A DNA stretch of 20,432 nucleotides from a virus. The notes below the pieces were generated by a model, which was not told where the DNA came from, ran no database searches, and was given only the letters and a program-made list of their open reading frames with translations. The translations under genes and the position numbers were made by a program. Every line of letters begins with the position of its first letter. Within the stretch, counting starts at the first letter, position 1. Where the stretch lies: the IMG/VR virus record IMGVR_UViG_3300030329_003434, positions 1-20,432 of that record. One strand, written 5' to 3'. Positions 1-19,475 of this stretch are shown piece after piece.

Positions 1-363
1 TGCTCCATTTACTGTTAATGCACCTGCGGAAGTAGCTATAGTTCCTGCATCAGTTAAAGTAATATCACCTTCTAAAAATAAATCTTGCCATGCAGCACTC
101 GCTGAACCAAGGTCATATGAATCGTCTGCTGATGGAAGTAAATCACCCGCAGGTGTCCAAGTTGTATCCCATGCCGGAATACCACCGGATACTGTCAATA
201 CAGCATTAGTTGAACCTATCCCCAATCGGGTCAGTTGACTTGAGGATGATGCGTACATGATATCCCCGGTAGCTTGAGAGTTGAATACGTGACCCGCAGT
301 TCCTTCATATTCTGCTTGTGTTATTTCTGTTCCTACCGAAACATGTTTAAATTCATTTGCCAT
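1..363 (-). CDS. Tail fibre / receptor-binding structural protein, N-terminal part (truncated by window edge)
   Basis: The reading frame is open from ATG at 363 to base 1 (121 codons) with no stop, so only the N-terminus is present. It begins MANEFKHVSVGTEITQAEYE. Around residues 78-121 it has a segment with PSADDSYDLGSASAAWQDLF followed by LEGDITLTDAGTIATSAGAL. Modules of this kind (a 'Y-D-L-G-S ... W..L.L.G' beta repeat) recur in tail-fibre or appendage proteins of marine phages, often ahead of a C-terminal intramolecular chaperone; that C-terminus is outside the window. The start overlaps the stop of the upstream 842-aa gene as TAATG, so translation is probably coupled. The position last in the tail block supports a host-recognition role. 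The family assignment is from remembered style, not from a search; that it is a real coding region is near certain. Confidence 0.8.
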   Translation of the reverse strand, partial: MANEFKHVSVGTEITQAEYEGTAGHVFNSQATGDIMYASSSSQLTRLGIGSTNAVLTVSGGIPAWDTTWTPAGDLLPSADDSYDLGSASAAWQDLFLEGDITLTDAGTIATSAGALTVNGA

Positions 364-2891
364 TAGCTTGTTTTAACCTCAGATAAATCTAGTGATAATA
401 TGTACGACCTTTCTATCGCTGCCGAAGATGTCCTTCTAACATTTCTACCTATAGGAACTAATGTCCTATCGGTGATTCTTGTTCTGTATTGAGTACCATC
501 TAAATCAGTAAACAATACAAACGGTTGTTGCCTTAATGTATTTATATTAGATAATACATTAGATAACACTTGTGTGTCACTTGCACCCCTTAACCTTTTT
601 GCTGTCATTCTAGCATCTAACAATTTTGCTTGTACTTTCCAATTTAAGAAGTTTACAGGGTTGAAAACGGCATGAAACACCATATTCTTTATTCTCGGTG
701 GCATAGCAGTTGTAGAACTCGATGCAAACTCAAACCTAAATCTAATACGTTTGAATGTTATAGGAGATGTAAGTGATGCAGTTAATGTTTGGCTACCTGA
801 TGAATTGATAACACCTGAATCACCAAATGTAGTCCATGTACTATCGTCAGTATCATCTAACCCTGAAGTTTCTATTTTGTAGGAAACTGTAACTGTTCTG
901 TTAGAATCTAAATTTTCACCTTCAAGAGTAAGTTTTACTGCTGCTTTATCCTGGTCAGGAAAATTGAAATCCATAAATGATGTATAAAAAACACCACTCT
1001 TACGTAATAACCGACTAGAGTTTAGGGCAGGGTGTTGGTTTTCTATAGGTAATCTTAGTCTGATTATTCTAGGTTCTACTCTTGATTGCGCACCATCAGA
1101 ACTGCTTGTACTGATATCTGAATTATCAAATTTACCAAATGCAAAAAGATTAGATTTACTATTTGTATCATCTTTATATCTAGCTAACTCTTGTATTTCG
1201 TCTACCAAGAAACTACTAATCGTATGAGAGACTAATTCAGATGGTGCTTGTGGATTATCTCTTTGATTAGTCATAGCAATCAAATATATTCTTTGTTTTT
1301 TGTTCGCTGCTGTAGGAAACGAAAAAGGAAAAGAATAAGGAAATGACGTAAAGTCATCTTTCAAATCATCAGGTACTGTTACAAATATATTGTTTACATC
1401 CTGCGTTATTGCAGATGCCCTACCACCAAATCCTATAAAACTGGTGGCTCTAAACAAATAGGAGACATCTTCCCATTGGTCGCCTGGTATGAGAAATGGA
1501 ATAGACCAAAAGGCTCTATCTCCTGAAGTAGCATATATTCTTCCTGCTCTGGAAATAACCTTTTTAAAGTTGTTACTTCCTGAAAAGAAGTTTGCCTCTG
1601 GTGAAATATCCTCGAATTGGTTGAAGTTTCTGTCATATGAAAATAGTCCATCTTCTTTACCTACTAATAAAACATCATTCGCAGCAAATAAATTAGTTAC
1701 AGATTTATCACTATCACCAACAGTCATTTCCGACCCCCAACTTGTCGCGTCATCAGGGTTGGTTGAAAACGATACTGTATTACTTCTTGTCTTTGCCAGT
1801 GCAAAATCACCATTAGCATTTCTTGCTCTAGCAAAGTATTTAGCATAATTCTGATTGGCAGTACCTGATGATGCTGCTGTAAATGCACCTGTTGTTCCGT
1901 CTGGTGCTGTAGCCGTTTGATATGCAGTAGAGTCTCCTCTTGCAACAAACAGTCTATTTGTTCCATCACCTGAATATACCGCTATATCAGTATATGCAGT
2001 AGTGTTCGCTTTAGGACCTACACTATCCCATTTCATATTGGTCTCATCCCACTTTAGAATATGGTATCCACAAGGTATATATAAAGAACCTTGAAATTCT
2101 ACCGCCTGTGCAGGGAAATCAACTCCACCTAACGGAATAATACATAAGTCATCTATATGAAATACATCTCCGTTAGTTCCTACTGTAAATTTGACTTCTA
2201 CTTTACTTGCTGAACCGTTTAGTGTTTTATCTACTTGCACCAATGTCCAATCTGTAGACGTTACTGATGACGAATCAGTTGTAGAAACTCCATCATCTAC
2301 AGTCATTTTTATACTGCCAGAACCCGATTTTCGTTTTACGTATGCTACTACCGTTATTTTTACCCCTTGTAATGCGTTCTTTGTTGTAGTAGCTACTGCC
2401 TGTAAAATAGTTCCGTTTGTAGCACCTGCTGTAAGTTTTGCAGATTGATTACCAGAATGAATATCAGCAGTGGTAGTAGTTTCAGCCGCTAGAGTTATAT
2501 TAGATGTAGTCCAAGCACCTGTAAAGTCACCTTCAAATCTTGGGTCTACTAAAAATAAATCGACTTCATCTTCCTGATACCCTAAAGTTAGTTCGTCTTT
2601 AAACTGTGCCAGAACGCCATCAGAATACCCGTATCTCGCTTCCTTACCAAATTCCTTATCATTACCCTGTCCAAACCCTCTATGGAACGATGATACGTCA
2701 TATGCCATGGCTAACTGTGGGTCTATCTGTTGGTAATTGGCATCATCTGTTGGTTGTCTAGGTGGTAGAAAAGGTAACGTACCTGTCTGATATCCACCTG
2801 TTAGGGTAGGGGAGTCTTTCCACAAAGTAAGTTCTACAGTATTAGAAGAACCATCTGTATGTTGTAAAACTATGTCTGAATGTTGTGCCAT
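363..2891 (-). CDS. Large tail protein with beta-propeller-like core and inserted beta-sandwich domain; candidate tail nozzle
   Basis: 842 aa. Residues 1-118 form an N-terminal region. Residues about 119-256 form a jelly-roll-like domain starting FEGDFTGAW and ending DVFHIDDLCI, resembling CBM4/9/22-type carbohydrate-binding folds. Residues about 257-560 contain repeated blade-like strands, such as LYIPCGYHILKWD, LLVGKEDGLFSYD and IYATSGDRAFWSIPF, suggesting a beta-propeller. The rest is a beta-rich C-terminal region ending SLDLSEVKTS. A large beta-propeller protein directly after a head-tail adaptor matches the position of the T7 gp12 nozzle, so a podovirus tail nozzle is my preferred reading. 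A siphovirus tail-tip protein is the alternative. The ATG abuts the stop of the 440-aa gene (2892) and the stop overlaps the fibre start. The inserted domain is homologous to one in the upstream gene. Confidence 0.85.
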   Translation of the reverse strand: MAQHSDIVLQHTDGSSNTVELTLWKDSPTLTGGYQTGTLPFLPPRQPTDDANYQQIDPQLAMAYDVSSFHRGFGQGNDKEFGKEARYGYSDGVLAQFKDELTLGYQEDEVDLFLVDPRFEGDFTGAWTTSNITLAAETTTTADIHSGNQSAKLTAGATNGTILQAVATTTKNALQGVKITVVAYVKRKSGSGSIKMTVDDGVSTTDSSSVTSTDWTLVQVDKTLNGSASKVEVKFTVGTNGDVFHIDDLCIIPLGGVDFPAQAVEFQGSLYIPCGYHILKWDETNMKWDSVGPKANTTAYTDIAVYSGDGTNRLFVARGDSTAYQTATAPDGTTGAFTAASSGTANQNYAKYFARARNANGDFALAKTRSNTVSFSTNPDDATSWGSEMTVGDSDKSVTNLFAANDVLLVGKEDGLFSYDRNFNQFEDISPEANFFSGSNNFKKVISRAGRIYATSGDRAFWSIPFLIPGDQWEDVSYLFRATSFIGFGGRASAITQDVNNIFVTVPDDLKDDFTSFPYSFPFSFPTAANKKQRIYLIAMTNQRDNPQAPSELVSHTISSFLVDEIQELARYKDDTNSKSNLFAFGKFDNSDISTSSSDGAQSRVEPRIIRLRLPIENQHPALNSSRLLRKSGVFYTSFMDFNFPDQDKAAVKLTLEGENLDSNRTVTVSYKIETSGLDDTDDSTWTTFGDSGVINSSGSQTLTASLTSPITFKRIRFRFEFASSSTTAMPPRIKNMVFHAVFNPVNFLNWKVQAKLLDARMTAKRLRGASDTQVLSNVLSNINTLRQQPFVLFTDLDGTQYRTRITDRTLVPIGRNVRRTSSAAIERSYILSLDLSEVKTS
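2124..2537 (-). repeat. Beta-sandwich domain copy in the 842-aa tail gene (partner at 3240-3683)
   Basis: Residues about 119-256 of the 842-aa protein match residues about 178-325 of the 440-aa protein. Shared positions in order: FE at the start, W, SNITLAAE, TT, G.QS.K.T, a Val-rich strand, an Arg in the middle, DG.S or SGSVS, W, a Leu-containing strand, VKV or VKF, V, F and a closing D.I or DE.V. The nearly identical SNITLAAE is the clearest signature. The fold looks like CBM4/9/22-type jelly-rolls; this is inferred from pattern only. Confidence 0.7.
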
Positions 2892-5269: not shown

Positions 5270-5295
5270 GTAGGGGAGAACTAAATCCCCCCCAC
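5270..5295 (-). terminator. GC-rich hairpin in the 57-bp spacer; weak terminator, attenuator or processing site
   Basis: On the minus strand, GTGGGGGGG (5295-5287) can pair with CTCCCCTAC (5278-5270) across the 8-nt loop ATTTAGTT, giving a 9-bp stem with two G-U wobbles. The sequence that follows is CTTATTTGAGG, only weakly T-rich, so this is not a textbook intrinsic terminator. It lies wholly in the spacer between the 113-aa and 102-aa genes (5252-5308), one of only two spacers over 25 bp in the window. It could partly terminate, protect or process the capsid-block transcript. The stem is read from the sequence; the role is inferred. Confidence 0.4.
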
Positions 5296-5308: not shown

Positions 5309-5650
5309 TTATGTAGCACCTGTTGATGAAGTCCAACCTGTTCCGTCAAATTTAAACCATGCACCGTAGTTTTGGTCTATAGTTCCAATCACGTTATCAG
5401 AATTGTTACCATCTCGGATAGTTAAGGTTTCCGCAGCATCGGCTTCGTTTTGAACATAGACTTCTAAAACTGATGTTCCCACACCTGTTGAAGATGAATC
5501 TATCGCTACTAAGTCGAGGTTTCTACCTGACCCACCCGGGTCTACTAACTGGACTTTATCACTAGATTTTGTAATAGTAAGGTCGGCTGCACCAGACATA
5601 GTCGTGGTTGTACCGTTCCTACTAATGTACTGTTGAGTACCTGCTGTCAT
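5309..5650 (-). CDS. Small beta-rich virion protein (113 aa), possible capsid decoration protein
   Basis: 113 aa, starting MTAGTQQYISRNGTTTTMSG and ending WFKFDGTGWTSSTGAT. It is rich in Thr, Ser, Gly and Asp, and Cys-free. Strand-like stretches include DLTITKSSDKVQLV, SVLEVYVQNEADAAETLTI and GAWFKFDGTGW. The segment 'tLtI.DG ... IG.I.q...aWFKFDGTGW' resembles a small beta-domain met in marine phage structural proteins. It is the last gene before the hairpin spacer and follows the zinc-finger gene by 5 bp. A ribosome binding site (GAGAGGAAT) precedes the ATG at 5650. It probably belongs to the capsid block as a decoration or head-fibre protein, but only its position and beta-rich composition support this. 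Confidence 0.83.
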   Translation of the reverse strand: MTAGTQQYISRNGTTTTMSGAADLTITKSSDKVQLVDPGGSGRNLDLVAIDSSSTGVGTSVLEVYVQNEADAAETLTIRDGNNSDNVIGTIDQNYGAWFKFDGTGWTSSTGAT

Positions 5651-5655
5651 AGTAA

Positions 5656-6123
5656 TTATTCCTCTCGATGCTTGGCATTAATATGTACTTTAACTCCAGC
5701 ATCGGACTTAAACTTTCGAGTGCATTTATTACACTTAAAAGTCTTTTCTTTATTCAATTCTCTTGTGTCTCGTTTCTTAAGATTATCAGCTAATTGTTCT
5801 AACCCCACCTCTAAATCGCTCTTACCGGTTGCAACTGTAGTATCGGCTTCTAACGTCTCAACCACAGGGGGAGCCATGAGCCAATTTTTTTCTACTGCGG
5901 TAGCGAGTCCGTGAGTTTGTCCCGGATACTCAAGAGATACCCATTCCCCCTTCTCCTGACGATAATATATCGCAGTATCTGGAGTAATGTACGTAGGTGA
6001 GGGCAGTTCTTCTAACCCATTCCTCTTTAGATATGCAGCTACTTGTTCAGGGCGATTACGAATAACCTCGTCTTTCCAATATCTCTGCATAGATTCAGGG
6101 GGAGATACTACTGGTTGTCTCAT
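5656..6123 (-). CDS. 155-aa protein with C-terminal classical C2H2 zinc finger
   Basis: 155 aa. Residues 1-100 are mixed and unrecognised (MRQPVVSPPESMQRYW ... VETLEADTTVATG). Residues about 101-128 are a charged helix (LEVGLEQLADNLKKRDTREL). Residues 129-152 form a zinc finger: F129-x-C131-x2-C134-x3-F138-x5-V144-x2-H147-x4-H152. This fits the classical C2H2 pattern at every ligand and core position, and is preceded by NKEKTFKC, reminiscent of the TGEKPF-type linker. The gene starts within the last codons of the 122-aa gene (ATGA overlap, 6120-6123), so translation is coupled. Zinc and DNA or protein binding are predicted from the motif; the target is unknown. It could be a virion protein that contacts DNA, or a non-virion regulator placed in the structural operon. 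Confidence 0.87.
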   Translation of the reverse strand: MRQPVVSPPESMQRYWKDEVIRNRPEQVAAYLKRNGLEELPSPTYITPDTAIYYRQEKGEWVSLEYPGQTHGLATAVEKNWLMAPPVVETLEADTTVATGKSDLEVGLEQLADNLKKRDTRELNKEKTFKCNKCTRKFKSDAGVKVHINAKHREE

Positions 6124-6488
6124 TTTCTACGACCTCTCTTTCCTCGTTTACGTTTGTTCCCACTAATTTTAGAAACAGTTTCAACTGCGCTGTCTACATT
6201 GTTCTCAATATTAGGAGGTGGAGTCCAATCATATAATTTCTTTTTTTCGTCTACTTTAGACACAATAGTTCCATCTACTATTGTAGATGTTCTATAAGGT
6301 GCGGCTAGTAATTTACCTGTTCTGTGCCTCGGAACGACTAACTTTGAACCATCTCTTTGGTCGTAAAGTGTCACCTTCTCTGCCTCTGGCGGAGTTTCAA
6401 GGTTTATCTCTGCGATGGAATTGCCAAGGAACTGTTTTACCTTCCCTTGTTTTTTCGCTATCCATTGCGAGGTATCCTGAGTAACCAT
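6120..6488 (-). CDS. 122-aa protein with strongly basic C-terminal tail
   Basis: 122 aa, beginning MVTQDTSQWIAKKQGKVKQF. It has a moderately charged N-terminal domain containing EAEKVTLYDQRDGSKLVV and PYRTSTIVDGTIVSKVDEKK, then an acidic/polar linker, and a final stretch of almost pure Lys/Arg (residues about 108-122, GNKRKRGKRGRRK). Such a tail suggests nucleic acid or acidic-surface binding. It follows the major capsid gene by 24 bp with an AGGA ribosome binding site and overlaps the zinc-finger gene by 4 bp. Two consecutive genes therefore end in nucleic-acid-binding-like C-termini. I do not recognise the family; a minor head protein or head-tail connector is possible by position. Confidence 0.87.
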   Translation of the reverse strand: MVTQDTSQWIAKKQGKVKQFLGNSIAEINLETPPEAEKVTLYDQRDGSKLVVPRHRTGKLLAAPYRTSTIVDGTIVSKVDEKKKLYDWTPPPNIENNVDSAVETVSKISGNKRKRGKRGRRK

Positions 6489-6512: not shown

Positions 6513-7409
6513 TTATGTGGTTGATGCGTCTGTAGCGGAGTATACTTCTACCCCCCAAACATCAACAATTTCACTTTCACCCCAAGTTCCCACAGTAACT
6601 ATTTCAGTACCACGGAGGGATGCGTCACGTTCTTCTTCCGCATGGATATCTATTTCCATTGCGAGAGCAAGTGCTTCTTTTGCGAAAACTCCACCTTTGG
6701 AGTCACCAGAACCGTCTCTGGAGATGTTTCCATCTTCATAGATAGGTACACCAAATACCGGGTCGTTTCCTCTCCAGTATGTGCTGATGATATCCGCTGA
6801 TGGTCCATCAGGGATTGCATTGTTATTTCTAACACCTGTATCAAATCCTGCCATATCTTCTGTCAACCTACGTATCTGCTCTGGGTGCAAAACTGCATGA
6901 GGTTTGCTTGGAGCAGGGCCATAAGTATCACTGTTATTTGTACGAAGATAAGCTACAGCACCGGCTATTGTCTGTACTGATGCGGCAGTACCTGCACCGG
7001 GAACAGAGGTGCTGAATCCGTCAAGAAGTGTTATAAGGTCACTATCGAGAAGTCTACCAACTGCCCTTCCGTGCATTGTACCGACTGCTGACAGTACATT
7101 TTCATTGTTCTCATGTCGTAATCTGTCGCTTACAAAAGATAAAATACCGTGTTCTGATGCAGTCAAGTTAACAACTGTTGCTGTTACCTGTTGCGGAACT
7201 GAGATATCTATACCTTCTGTTAAAGCAACCGCAGATTGCCTGCCCCATATTGGCACGTTAACCTGTTTCGCACCTGACGGTATGTCATAGCGGGAAACAA
7301 GGTCTGCCATTGGAGCGGCTGGTTCTACGTTATCTATTGCTTCAGCGACAATGATTTTAGACATATCTTCCAAACTCGATGAGTCTGAAAGCGATAATCC
7401 ATTTGCCAT
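6513..7409 (-). CDS. Major capsid protein, HK97-like fold
   Basis: 298 aa. The N-terminal region (1-40) contains MSKIIVAEAIDNVEPAAPMA. A beta-rich part with VNVPIWGRQSAVALTEG follows. A long alpha-helical segment at about 102-130 (NVLSAVGTMHGRAVGRLLD) looks like the HK97 spine helix. Then comes a loop with AVLHPEQIRRLTEDM, a beta hinge FGVPIYEDGNIS, and the typical C-terminal stretch GGVFAKEALALAM ... GTEIVTVGTWGESEIVDVWG. This order (spine helix, 'vlhPeq', 'GvPiyed', 'keAlala', 'yG..ivd.wGv') is characteristic of HK97-type coat proteins, and the length is normal for the smaller ones. It follows the scaffold-like gene by 12 bp with an AGGAAA ribosome binding site, and it is probably the most strongly expressed gene here, helped by the promoter upstream of the scaffold. 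Confidence 0.88.
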   Translation of the reverse strand: MANGLSLSDSSSLEDMSKIIVAEAIDNVEPAAPMADLVSRYDIPSGAKQVNVPIWGRQSAVALTEGIDISVPQQVTATVVNLTASEHGILSFVSDRLRHENNENVLSAVGTMHGRAVGRLLDSDLITLLDGFSTSVPGAGTAASVQTIAGAVAYLRTNNSDTYGPAPSKPHAVLHPEQIRRLTEDMAGFDTGVRNNNAIPDGPSADIISTYWRGNDPVFGVPIYEDGNISRDGSGDSKGGVFAKEALALAMEIDIHAEEERDASLRGTEIVTVGTWGESEIVDVWGVEVYSATDASTT

Positions 7410-7421
7410 TATCTTAATTTC

Positions 7422-8195
7422 CTATAAAGTTGCCGAGCCGCTTTGCTTTAGCTGTTTCTTTATATCTCTGTATTGAGCAGAGTTTATATTTCCATCAGCA
7501 AACAATGTTGCAGCATCGGATAATGTATTTACCGATTTGGCTGTTCGTTGTGGTGCGCCTTGGGTTGTAGGAGCGGTATTCGGTTGAGAAGATGGTGCAG
7601 GAGCAGGTTTTGCAGGTGCTGGTGTAGTTAATGCTCGTAAGTTCATTTCTGCAAGTCTTATTGATTGACCTACTGACATCCCTTGATTATAACCTTGCCA
7701 TAACCTTGTATCCCCTATAGAAATATTTACTCCTGATTGATTTATCATCGACTGAACTTCTTGTGCGAGTATTGATTGTTCGGGTGACATAGACCGTTCT
7801 GCCTGTACAGGTTCTTCAGTCCTCATCGCCTTTTGCTTCCAATATTCTATTTGTTCAGTTTCTTCAAGAGTTTCTATATGAGCCTGTTCCTGTTTTTGCA
7901 TTAATTCCTGATAAGGCTTCAATGCAGAATCAACTCTATCTATAACACGCTGTTCCAACTCATCGGCTTTCCTTCCAAACGTATCTGCTATACGACCTTG
8001 TTCTTTACCAACGAAATCCCGTAGGACTTTTTCATAGTTTGGTGTTTCAACAGATGGTTGTTCTACTTGCTGTTCTCCCGTAGGTTCATCAGCTTTTGCT
8101 CCATTATCTTGTAAGATTTCTTTTGCAATAGCTTCTGCTTGGGGGCTTACAGCTTCTTGCTCAGTCGTTTGTTGTACGTTATCTTGTTCAGCCAT
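7422..8195 (-). CDS. Capsid scaffold-like protein
   Basis: 257 aa. The N-terminal 60 residues are rich in Gln and Glu (MAEQDNVQQTTEQEAVSPQA). A long charged helical, probably coiled-coil region runs from about 55 to 125 (VGKEQGRIADTFGRKADELE and following). An Ala/Pro-rich linker sits around 190-215 (TTPAPAKPAPAPSS). The basic C-terminal helical segment (ADGNINSAQYRDIKKQLKQS) resembles the coat-binding end of many scaffolds. There is no protease motif. Position directly before the major capsid gene, acidic and helical composition and a positively charged C-terminus all fit a scaffold, although such proteins rarely show sequence identity. The start at 8195 follows the 81-bp spacer; AAGGG lies about 11 bp upstream of the ATG as a possible ribosome binding site. 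Confidence 0.85.
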   Translation of the reverse strand: MAEQDNVQQTTEQEAVSPQAEAIAKEILQDNGAKADEPTGEQQVEQPSVETPNYEKVLRDFVGKEQGRIADTFGRKADELEQRVIDRVDSALKPYQELMQKQEQAHIETLEETEQIEYWKQKAMRTEEPVQAERSMSPEQSILAQEVQSMINQSGVNISIGDTRLWQGYNQGMSVGQSIRLAEMNLRALTTPAPAKPAPAPSSQPNTAPTTQGAPQRTAKSVNTLSDAATLFADGNINSAQYRDIKKQLKQSGSATL

Positions 8196-17957: not shown

Positions 17958-19475
17958 TTATCCTGTTAGAATTTCTTCTCTGACTTCATCAGGAAGGTTG
18001 TCTAAAAATTTCTTACGTTTTCGTTCTCGAACCTTTTGAATAAAGTTCGATGGTCTTTTTACTGGTATCGGTCTTATCGGTGTCATGCCTCTTATTGGTC
18101 TGCCAAATCCATAATCACCGCTTTCTGAACCAGGAGGGTCGCAAGCCATTAATGCTAACAGTTCCGAATCTACCCAGTCATCATGTTGCTGTGATTCTGT
18201 ATAAAATGTATAACCACCGTTGCCCGTAGGGCGGATAGATATATCTTCTAATTGTTTTTTCAGTGTTATCCATTCACTTGGAAAAGAGACATCTCCGTTC
18301 TCTAAAGCAATGTAATAATTCTGAAATAACTGATATTTACTTTGCATACTGAACTTGAAAGGTGTCACAGGTAACCCTGCTGACATAAGATGGTCAAAGA
18401 CCACATCTCCAAGTCCTGTACTATCTATTCGTACATCATCAACTCCCCATCTGTCAATCTCTGCCGCTATACTTTCTAACTGATTTACCCAATCTGTACC
18501 CGACATTTCCAAAGAATAAACACTTTCTCTTGTTCGTGAATCTTTTACGATAAATACTGTATAGTCTTGGCTTTTACCCAAGTCCAGTCCGGCTACATAT
18601 CTTCTGTTTTTTTCCGGACTCCATATTTCTTTTCCTGTTGCAGCTTCGTCAATTTTAATACCACGAAAGAATCCTGAACCACCGTCTGGTTGTTTTGCCA
18701 GATACATACGTTCCCATACTTGGTCTGGCATGGTATTTTTTTCTTCATCAATAGATTTTTTCTGTCTCTCTGTTAGAAACACATTTTCAAAACTTGTTGC
18801 ATGGAAACCTTGATATTCGTCTGTAGGATTTTCTGAAGCGTATCTATATAATCTTGCAAACCAGTGTGACCTGGAGAAAGGTGGTATCCCTTCCACACAG
18901 GCTTTTCCTAGTCTACCTGCTGAGTTCAGCATTGGTCGTAACTTATTCCATGCAGCTTCTTTTATATCCTGAGACTCGGTAATCCATATAAAATCAGGAC
19001 CTGCTGTCTGTAAGGATTCAGGGTCGTCAGCGGATTTTATTTCCAGATATACTTCTCGTCTGGCCAGGTTAGGTTTTTGTAAATTGAGCCATACGGTTTT
19101 TTCATCTTCGTTCCATCCAGAACCTCTACCACCACCTTGTCCGGGTTTTCGTCTTACGACAAGGTTACTCGGCATGAATTGTTTTAGTTCGTTCCATGCC
19201 TGTCTTGACTGAGCGTATGAAGGAGCGACTATCCATATATGAATTTGAGGCTCAAGGGTAGGGGTTAAGTTATGTCCGATTCTTACACCGGTAGCTTCGG
19301 CAACTTCTTTTGATGCTAGGAACGGAGAGTTTGATGCTTGGGTAATGGCTCTCATCAGTTCGGTTAAAACTGCTCTACCTTTACCTGCTCTACGACCAGC
19401 CCATATGACTTTTATACGTGCATCAGATTCATGGAGTTTTTTCTGCCATGGACTCGCAGTATATTGAAAAGCCAT
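17958..19475 (-). CDS. terL: Terminase large subunit (ATPase and nuclease)
   Basis: 505 aa, normal for the family. It powers DNA packaging at the portal and cuts the concatemer. The N-terminal ATPase has Walker A GRRAGKGR at 27-34. A Walker-B-like DFIWITE at 161-167 has Glu167 as catalytic acid, although the usual preceding Asp is Thr166. A coupling-type motif is VEGIPPFSRSHWF at about 194-206. The C-terminal RNase-H-like nuclease shows the expected acidic residues: D298 (GLDLGKSQDYT, with D304), D351 (RIDSTGLGD) and D432/D433/D436 (HDDWVDSELLALMA). The ATG abuts the preceding stop and a strong GGAGGAG ribosome binding site lies just upstream. It leads directly to the portal gene. Confidence 0.95.
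   Translation of the reverse strand: MAFQYTASPWQKKLHESDARIKVIWAGRRAGKGRAVLTELMRAITQASNSPFLASKEVAEATGVRIGHNLTPTLEPQIHIWIVAPSYAQSRQAWNELKQFMPSNLVVRRKPGQGGGRGSGWNEDEKTVWLNLQKPNLARREVYLEIKSADDPESLQTAGPDFIWITESQDIKEAAWNKLRPMLNSAGRLGKACVEGIPPFSRSHWFARLYRYASENPTDEYQGFHATSFENVFLTERQKKSIDEEKNTMPDQVWERMYLAKQPDGGSGFFRGIKIDEAATGKEIWSPEKNRRYVAGLDLGKSQDYTVFIVKDSRTRESVYSLEMSGTDWVNQLESIAAEIDRWGVDDVRIDSTGLGDVVFDHLMSAGLPVTPFKFSMQSKYQLFQNYYIALENGDVSFPSEWITLKKQLEDISIRPTGNGGYTFYTESQQHDDWVDSELLALMACDPPGSESGDYGFGRPIRGMTPIRPIPVKRPSNFIQKVRERKRKKFLDNLPDEVREEILTG

Follow-up and report, generated by a model that had tools for sequence, protein, structure and literature searches.

A classical-type C2H2 zinc finger encoded in the head gene block of an uncultivated tailed phage

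Background

Classical C2H2 zinc fingers are regarded as a eukaryotic hallmark, and positions -1, 2, 3 and 6 of their helix are the base-reading positions. We describe a single finger of classical type at the C-terminus of a protein of 155 amino acids (aa) encoded in the structural gene block of a tailed phage. The gene lies at positions 5656–6123 (minus strand) of a 20,432-nucleotide stretch, henceforth the window, that makes up positions 1 to 20,432 of IMG/VR record IMGVR_UViG_3300030329_003434, a virus contig of 20,978 bases.

The described systems closest to this finger come from bacteria, archaeal viruses, eukaryotes and Streptomyces phages (see below). The Ros/MucR class is defined by nine residues between the second Cys and the first His and by a larger domain with an extra strand and helix; in Ros, the ligands C79, C82, H92 and H97 sit in a larger fold of 58 aa (PMC9779718). 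The phage finger shares with this class the C2H2 ligands in a prokaryotic setting and differs from it in a gap of 12 residues and a short beta-beta-alpha form. Archaeal viruses encode C2H2 proteins that resemble ours in being single fingers of eukaryotic type. In AFV1p06 the fourth His is replaced by Glu, and the tails are disordered (PMC3541406). The phage gene differs from these in host domain and gene context, and a TatC gene in a relative (see below) points to a bacterial host. The phage finger shares with the classical fingers of YY1, CTCF and WT1 the order and spacing of the ligands, the core Phe and aliphatic residue and the predicted beta-beta-alpha fold. Unlike those proteins, it is one finger rather than a tandem array, its base-reading residues are not conserved, it is joined to a domain of unknown type and encoded among head genes, and its Pfam score lies below the cut-off. 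In the literature searched, of which coverage was partial, we found nothing relevant on phage head proteins with C2H2 fingers.

The finger motif and its class

The finger spans residues 129–152 (5668–5739, minus strand) and reads FKCNKCTRKFKSDAGVKVHINAKH, with ligands C131, C134, H147 and H152 spaced C-x2-C-x12-H-x4-H and with F138 and V144 as core residues. The two Cys ligands are the only Cys of the protein, whose C-terminal end reads TFKCNKCTRKFKSDAGVKVHINAKHREE; positions 5656–5667 code for residues 153–155 and the stop. We searched for the PROSITE-type pattern C-x(2,4)-C-x3-[LIVMFYWC]-x8-H-x(3,5)-H and found a single occurrence across the six frames of the window. Shuffling the protein 20,000 times never produced the pattern, nor did 2,000 joint shuffles of 17 operon proteins. 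An earlier note, written by a model from the letters of the window, had proposed a classical finger at these residues, and the uniqueness of the pattern and its absence from shuffles confirm that proposal.

The remainder of the protein consists of an N-terminal domain of unknown fold (residues 1–92; 5848–6123, minus strand), which has no match in Pfam, PHROGs or NCBIfam, and a variable linker (residues 93–127; 5743–5847, minus strand) with a predicted helix at 103–126. With one pattern match and no family match for the N-terminal domain, the earlier description of a lone finger joined to a domain without recognised family also stands. For the whole protein, NCBIfam gave nothing above noise, and PHROGs gave one weak C-terminal match to a family of unknown function. 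Pfam matches to Actin_micro, ARS2 and TMEM181 were below cut-off and taken as noise.

Profile and fold comparisons placed the C-terminus among eukaryotic fingers, including YY1, CTCF and WT1. Matches of the family profile to the Protein Data Bank (PDB) were confined to this region, the best being YY1 (E 1.3e-9). AlphaFold2, a check suggested together with the original claim, predicted a beta-beta-alpha finger with a pLDDT of about 80 over residues 131–150, in a whole-protein model that was poor (mean pLDDT 52.8). Foldseek against the PDB returned a top list made up almost entirely of C2H2 fingers, at a probability of <=0.99 and an E of about 0.2 for this small domain. Whole models of the finger protein and of the neighbouring partner protein had no Foldseek match in BFVD at E < 0.001.

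The Hidden Markov Model of Pfam zf-C2H2 (PF00096), proposed as a check in the earlier note, matched at 16.8 bits (E 0.0096) against a gathering cut-off of 25.2 bits, and none of 11 related records exceeded that cut-off. We attribute the low score to the finger being single and short, and we read the threshold as a matter of curation, not as a physical property. Assignment to the classical class rests on other features, namely a ligand spacing within C-x(2,4)-C-x12-H-x(3,5)-H, the core aromatic and aliphatic residues, the conservation of the ligands in homologues and the predicted beta-beta-alpha fold. A Ros/MucR assignment, which the earlier note had argued against, is contradicted by the gap of 12 residues and by the lack of any match of the finger protein to Ros/MucR family models; together these identify the finger as classical. 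We consider a finger of classical type in this protein well supported on sequence grounds, and it would be expected to bind zinc.

Conservation in related contigs

Homologues of the gene were found at the same place in 18 IMG/VR contigs. All four ligands (two Cys, two His) and the core Phe are intact in 18 of 18, a count that includes the divergent contig L186, while the remainder of the finger varies. Wider scans with capsid and partner profiles added only that one contig, and its finger is intact. The alignment of homologues had been named beforehand as the place where the claim of a true finger could fail; it left the claim standing. The spacing between the two Cys is x2 in the window and in one near relative and x4 in the others, and the classical class permits both. 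In nearly all pairs, nonsynonymous distances (dN) were smaller than synonymous distances (dS) in each of the N-terminal domain, the linker and the finger; several of the dS values, however, were saturated. The N-terminal domain is the best conserved part by dN (0.02–0.29).

The surface of the finger is variable in sequence and constant in charge. Helix positions -1, 2, 3 and 6 read SAGV, SGGL, TRGK, TRGR and TSNI across the family and differ even at 57–72% overall identity; Gly, Ala, Val, Leu or Ile is frequent there, and most of the residues are not base readers. Finger and tail together carry a net charge of +6 to +10 in all members. Sequence-specific C2H2 transcription factors have conserved base readers and usually tandem fingers, whereas this family has a single finger with variable positions. 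The residues that precede the finger had been likened to a TGEKPF linker. NKEKTF in the window does share part of that look, but relatives have KIEKPF, KINPF, KAKPF or KSKSL, and there is no preceding finger to link.

Searched as a whole, the protein resembled nothing in annotated phages, and no relatives were found in bacterial genomes; matches to mycobacteriophage proteins (E about 4) were noise. As far as these tools show, the family and its genomic place are new, and the fold is one already known. A second open reading frame (ORF), of 36 aa and nearly all C2H2 finger (MNVKWQPTHQCPHGCNKFFGSTVALNWHLEQHKETT), was seen in relative G005 (contig IMGVR_UViG_3300038825_000954, L069:9359-9466, plus strand).

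Gene context and translational coupling

The window is the structural block of a tailed phage, read from the minus strand, and the block runs from terminase to tail genes as one unit. Family matches identify the terminase and the capsid protein, and the remaining genes were named by position. The order is a gene of 191 aa where the small terminase is expected, the large terminase subunit (17958–19475, minus strand; PHROG 2, E 1.4e-29; Pfam Terminase_6C) at the start of the head block, a gene in the portal position, proteins of 970 and 1559 aa, a probable scaffolding protein, the major capsid protein, small proteins, and large proteins in tail positions. The major capsid gene (6513–7409, minus strand) matched PHROG 267 major head protein (E 2.2e-4) and, just under the cut-off, Pfam Phage_capsid_4 (E 2.4e-5). 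The scaffolding candidate (7422–8195, minus strand) was named from its position before the capsid gene and its composition, and had no Pfam or PHROGs match above noise.

Wherever a locus includes the capsid gene, the second gene past it is the one for the finger protein. Its placement in the head block was as first described, but it does not directly follow the capsid gene, since a partner gene of 122 aa (6120–6488, minus strand) intervenes. Encoded in the head block close to the capsid gene, the finger protein has the placement expected of a phage head protein.

The partner protein ends in a basic tail, KRKRGKRGRRK (6123–6155, minus strand), that is near-invariant: in every relative, KRKRGKRG plus two or three further basic residues closes the protein. 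The partner stop and the finger-gene start overlap, as ATGA in the window and TAATG in relatives. A Shine-Dalgarno-like GAGAGG for the finger gene (6133–6138, minus strand) lies inside the end of the partner gene, where part of the Lys/Arg-tail codons overlaps the ribosome-binding site. Because of this arrangement the two proteins are probably made in linked amounts through translational coupling. The model of the partner is partially beta-beta-alpha; a common origin of the two proteins was unsupported (hhalign probability 0.5%).

A parallel in Streptomyces phages

By searching phage records with finger sequences, we found a parallel in gp19 of Streptomyces phage TurkishDelight, with which we group the Woodruffvirus gene in the corresponding position. 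Like the window protein, gp19 is encoded two genes past the capsid gene and carries a single C-terminal classical finger (PCPRCSRSFTTGRGREVHLSRVHS) of the form C-x2-C-x12-H-x4-H; its C-terminal end reads KPYPCPRCSRSFTTGRGREVHLSRVHS. It differs in its N-terminal domain, which has no detectable similarity to that of the window protein and occurs in 17 records, all Streptomyces phages. Of the gp19 family members read, TurkishDelight alone has the finger. All five relatives that were read share the N-terminal 61 residues, lack the finger and have Lys/Arg-rich C-terminal stretches instead, for example KPRKRAPRRPRK (BayC), KNTRRRPAKQTK (Mischief19) and ARKPRKRAPRKAAE (Xkcd426).

The lack of N-terminal similarity makes the window family and the gp19 cases look independent, and the Streptomyces parallel suggests that a finger and a basic tail may serve one and the same function in those phages. 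It is possible, though doubtful, that tailed phages repeatedly place interchangeable C-terminal nucleic-acid-binding modules, either a classical finger or a Lys/Arg-rich tail, on small proteins whose genes closely follow that of the capsid, and that these proteins form a little-noticed class that would touch DNA during head filling. We note that the Streptomyces parallel is one case rather than a survey. Fingers of the other tailed phages inspected (Tunturi_5 and Brevundimonas phage Bambus) lie outside head blocks. A match in Paracoccus phage R3 was due to chance, as the translated protein has no Cys.

Proposed role and alternatives

Given its operon position and its basic-tailed neighbour, we favour reading the gene product as a head or assembly protein whose finger touches nucleic acid. 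We put the chance at about even that the product is a late head or assembly protein whose C-terminal finger makes such contacts non-sequence-specifically. The conserved N-terminal domain would tie the protein to the assembling head. The finger would hold one zinc ion, which would lock a short basic beta-beta-alpha module, and this module would make contacts without sequence specificity, most likely with nucleic acid, namely DNA during packaging or inside the head. It may act together with the partner protein and its KRKRGKRGRR tail, and the finger protein would be present in the virion or procapsid. The kept ligands, the finger fold, the place after the capsid gene, the coupling, the basic charge and the TurkishDelight parallel all support this reading. 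Several points weigh against it. We infer the presence of the protein in the virion, and the family is uncultivated; the N-terminal domain has no known relative, and position alone ties the protein to a head role. The variable helix surface fits protein binding too, and constraint at the RNA level, on codons of the ribosome-binding site, may explain some of the conservation of the partner tail.

A rather unlikely alternative, next in rank, is one in which the finger joins head parts (capsid and scaffold, or head and connector) as a protein-protein contact module with purely structural zinc and no nucleic acid. The zinc scaffold is fixed, and the helix surface that it carries is variable and partly hydrophobic (many members have V, L or I at +6); the gene sits among head genes. 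The strong positive charge that persists in all members argues against such a module, as do the basic C-terminal parts in the Streptomyces relatives where TurkishDelight has a finger, which look more like nucleic-acid or polyanion binders.

We judge it improbable that the protein regulates viral or host genes by binding DNA, with its place in the late block being incidental. Most characterised C2H2 proteins do regulate genes. A single archaeal viral finger, that of AFV1p06, binds DNA with sequence-dependent affinity (PMC3541406). However, the recognition-helix positions of the phage family vary even between relatives of 57–72% overall identity and are not typical base readers, and the gene keeps its place within the structural block, where it is coupled to the partner gene. 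Variable helix positions combined with constant basic charge are less expected of a gene-specific repressor than of a module that touches a polyanion non-specifically or binds a protein partner that itself changes. Of the roles put forward in the earlier note, DNA or protein binding in assembly is favoured, though not proven, and host-gene control is less favoured, because the helix positions are variable and mostly non-base-reading and the gene lies inside the late block.

A chance or decaying motif without zinc function, to which the sub-cut-off Pfam score of the single protein might point, is very improbable and, we consider, already refuted at the sequence level by the shuffles, the ligands intact in all 18 contigs, the excess of dS over dN in nearly all pairs, the YY1 profile match and the confident local fold. 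A conserved finger in a head gene block offers a concrete hypothesis of zinc-dependent assembly.

Host and rarity of such fingers

The 38-kb genome of relative G005 encodes TatC (L069:11784-12695, minus strand; PF00902, E 3.4e-34), the Sec-independent translocase, which is unusual in a virus and a hint to the host. All 58 genome matches of this gene came from Chloroflexota records (24–39% identity), which suggests a Chloroflexota host for that relative; the host is not proven for the phage of the window. The phage family may be of marine origin and may have a SAR202-like host; both are guesses. PF00096 matched 2 of 101 sampled Chloroflexota genomes, so such fingers are not widespread in that phylum.

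Classical C2H2 fingers seldom occur in bacteria or bacteriophages. A search with one consensus finger gave matches in 83 of 50,697 phage records, and Sulfolobus viruses accounted for 56 of these. The finger had been called unexpected in its setting, and its rarity is real; it is not unique, since archaeal viruses and a few tailed phages have such fingers, one of them likewise encoded two genes past the capsid gene.

Other features of the window and its relatives

The gene directly after the finger gene (5309–5650, minus strand) seems to occur in clearly different versions (111–128 aa) among otherwise close relatives, which suggests that this slot may be a site of module exchange. A hairpin resembling a terminator lies 3' of this gene (5270–5295, minus strand; 10 pairs, 6 of them G-C); terminator-like hairpin sites in the region number 5, with 2.2 expected. 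In relative G007 (L071:8208-9659, minus strand), two ORFs resemble DNA methyltransferases (C5-cytosine and Dam-like), as judged by eye. An 842-aa protein of the tail region (363–2891, minus strand) has a weak match to the carbohydrate-binding module CBM_4_9 over residues 116–239 (24.3 against 25.9 bits).
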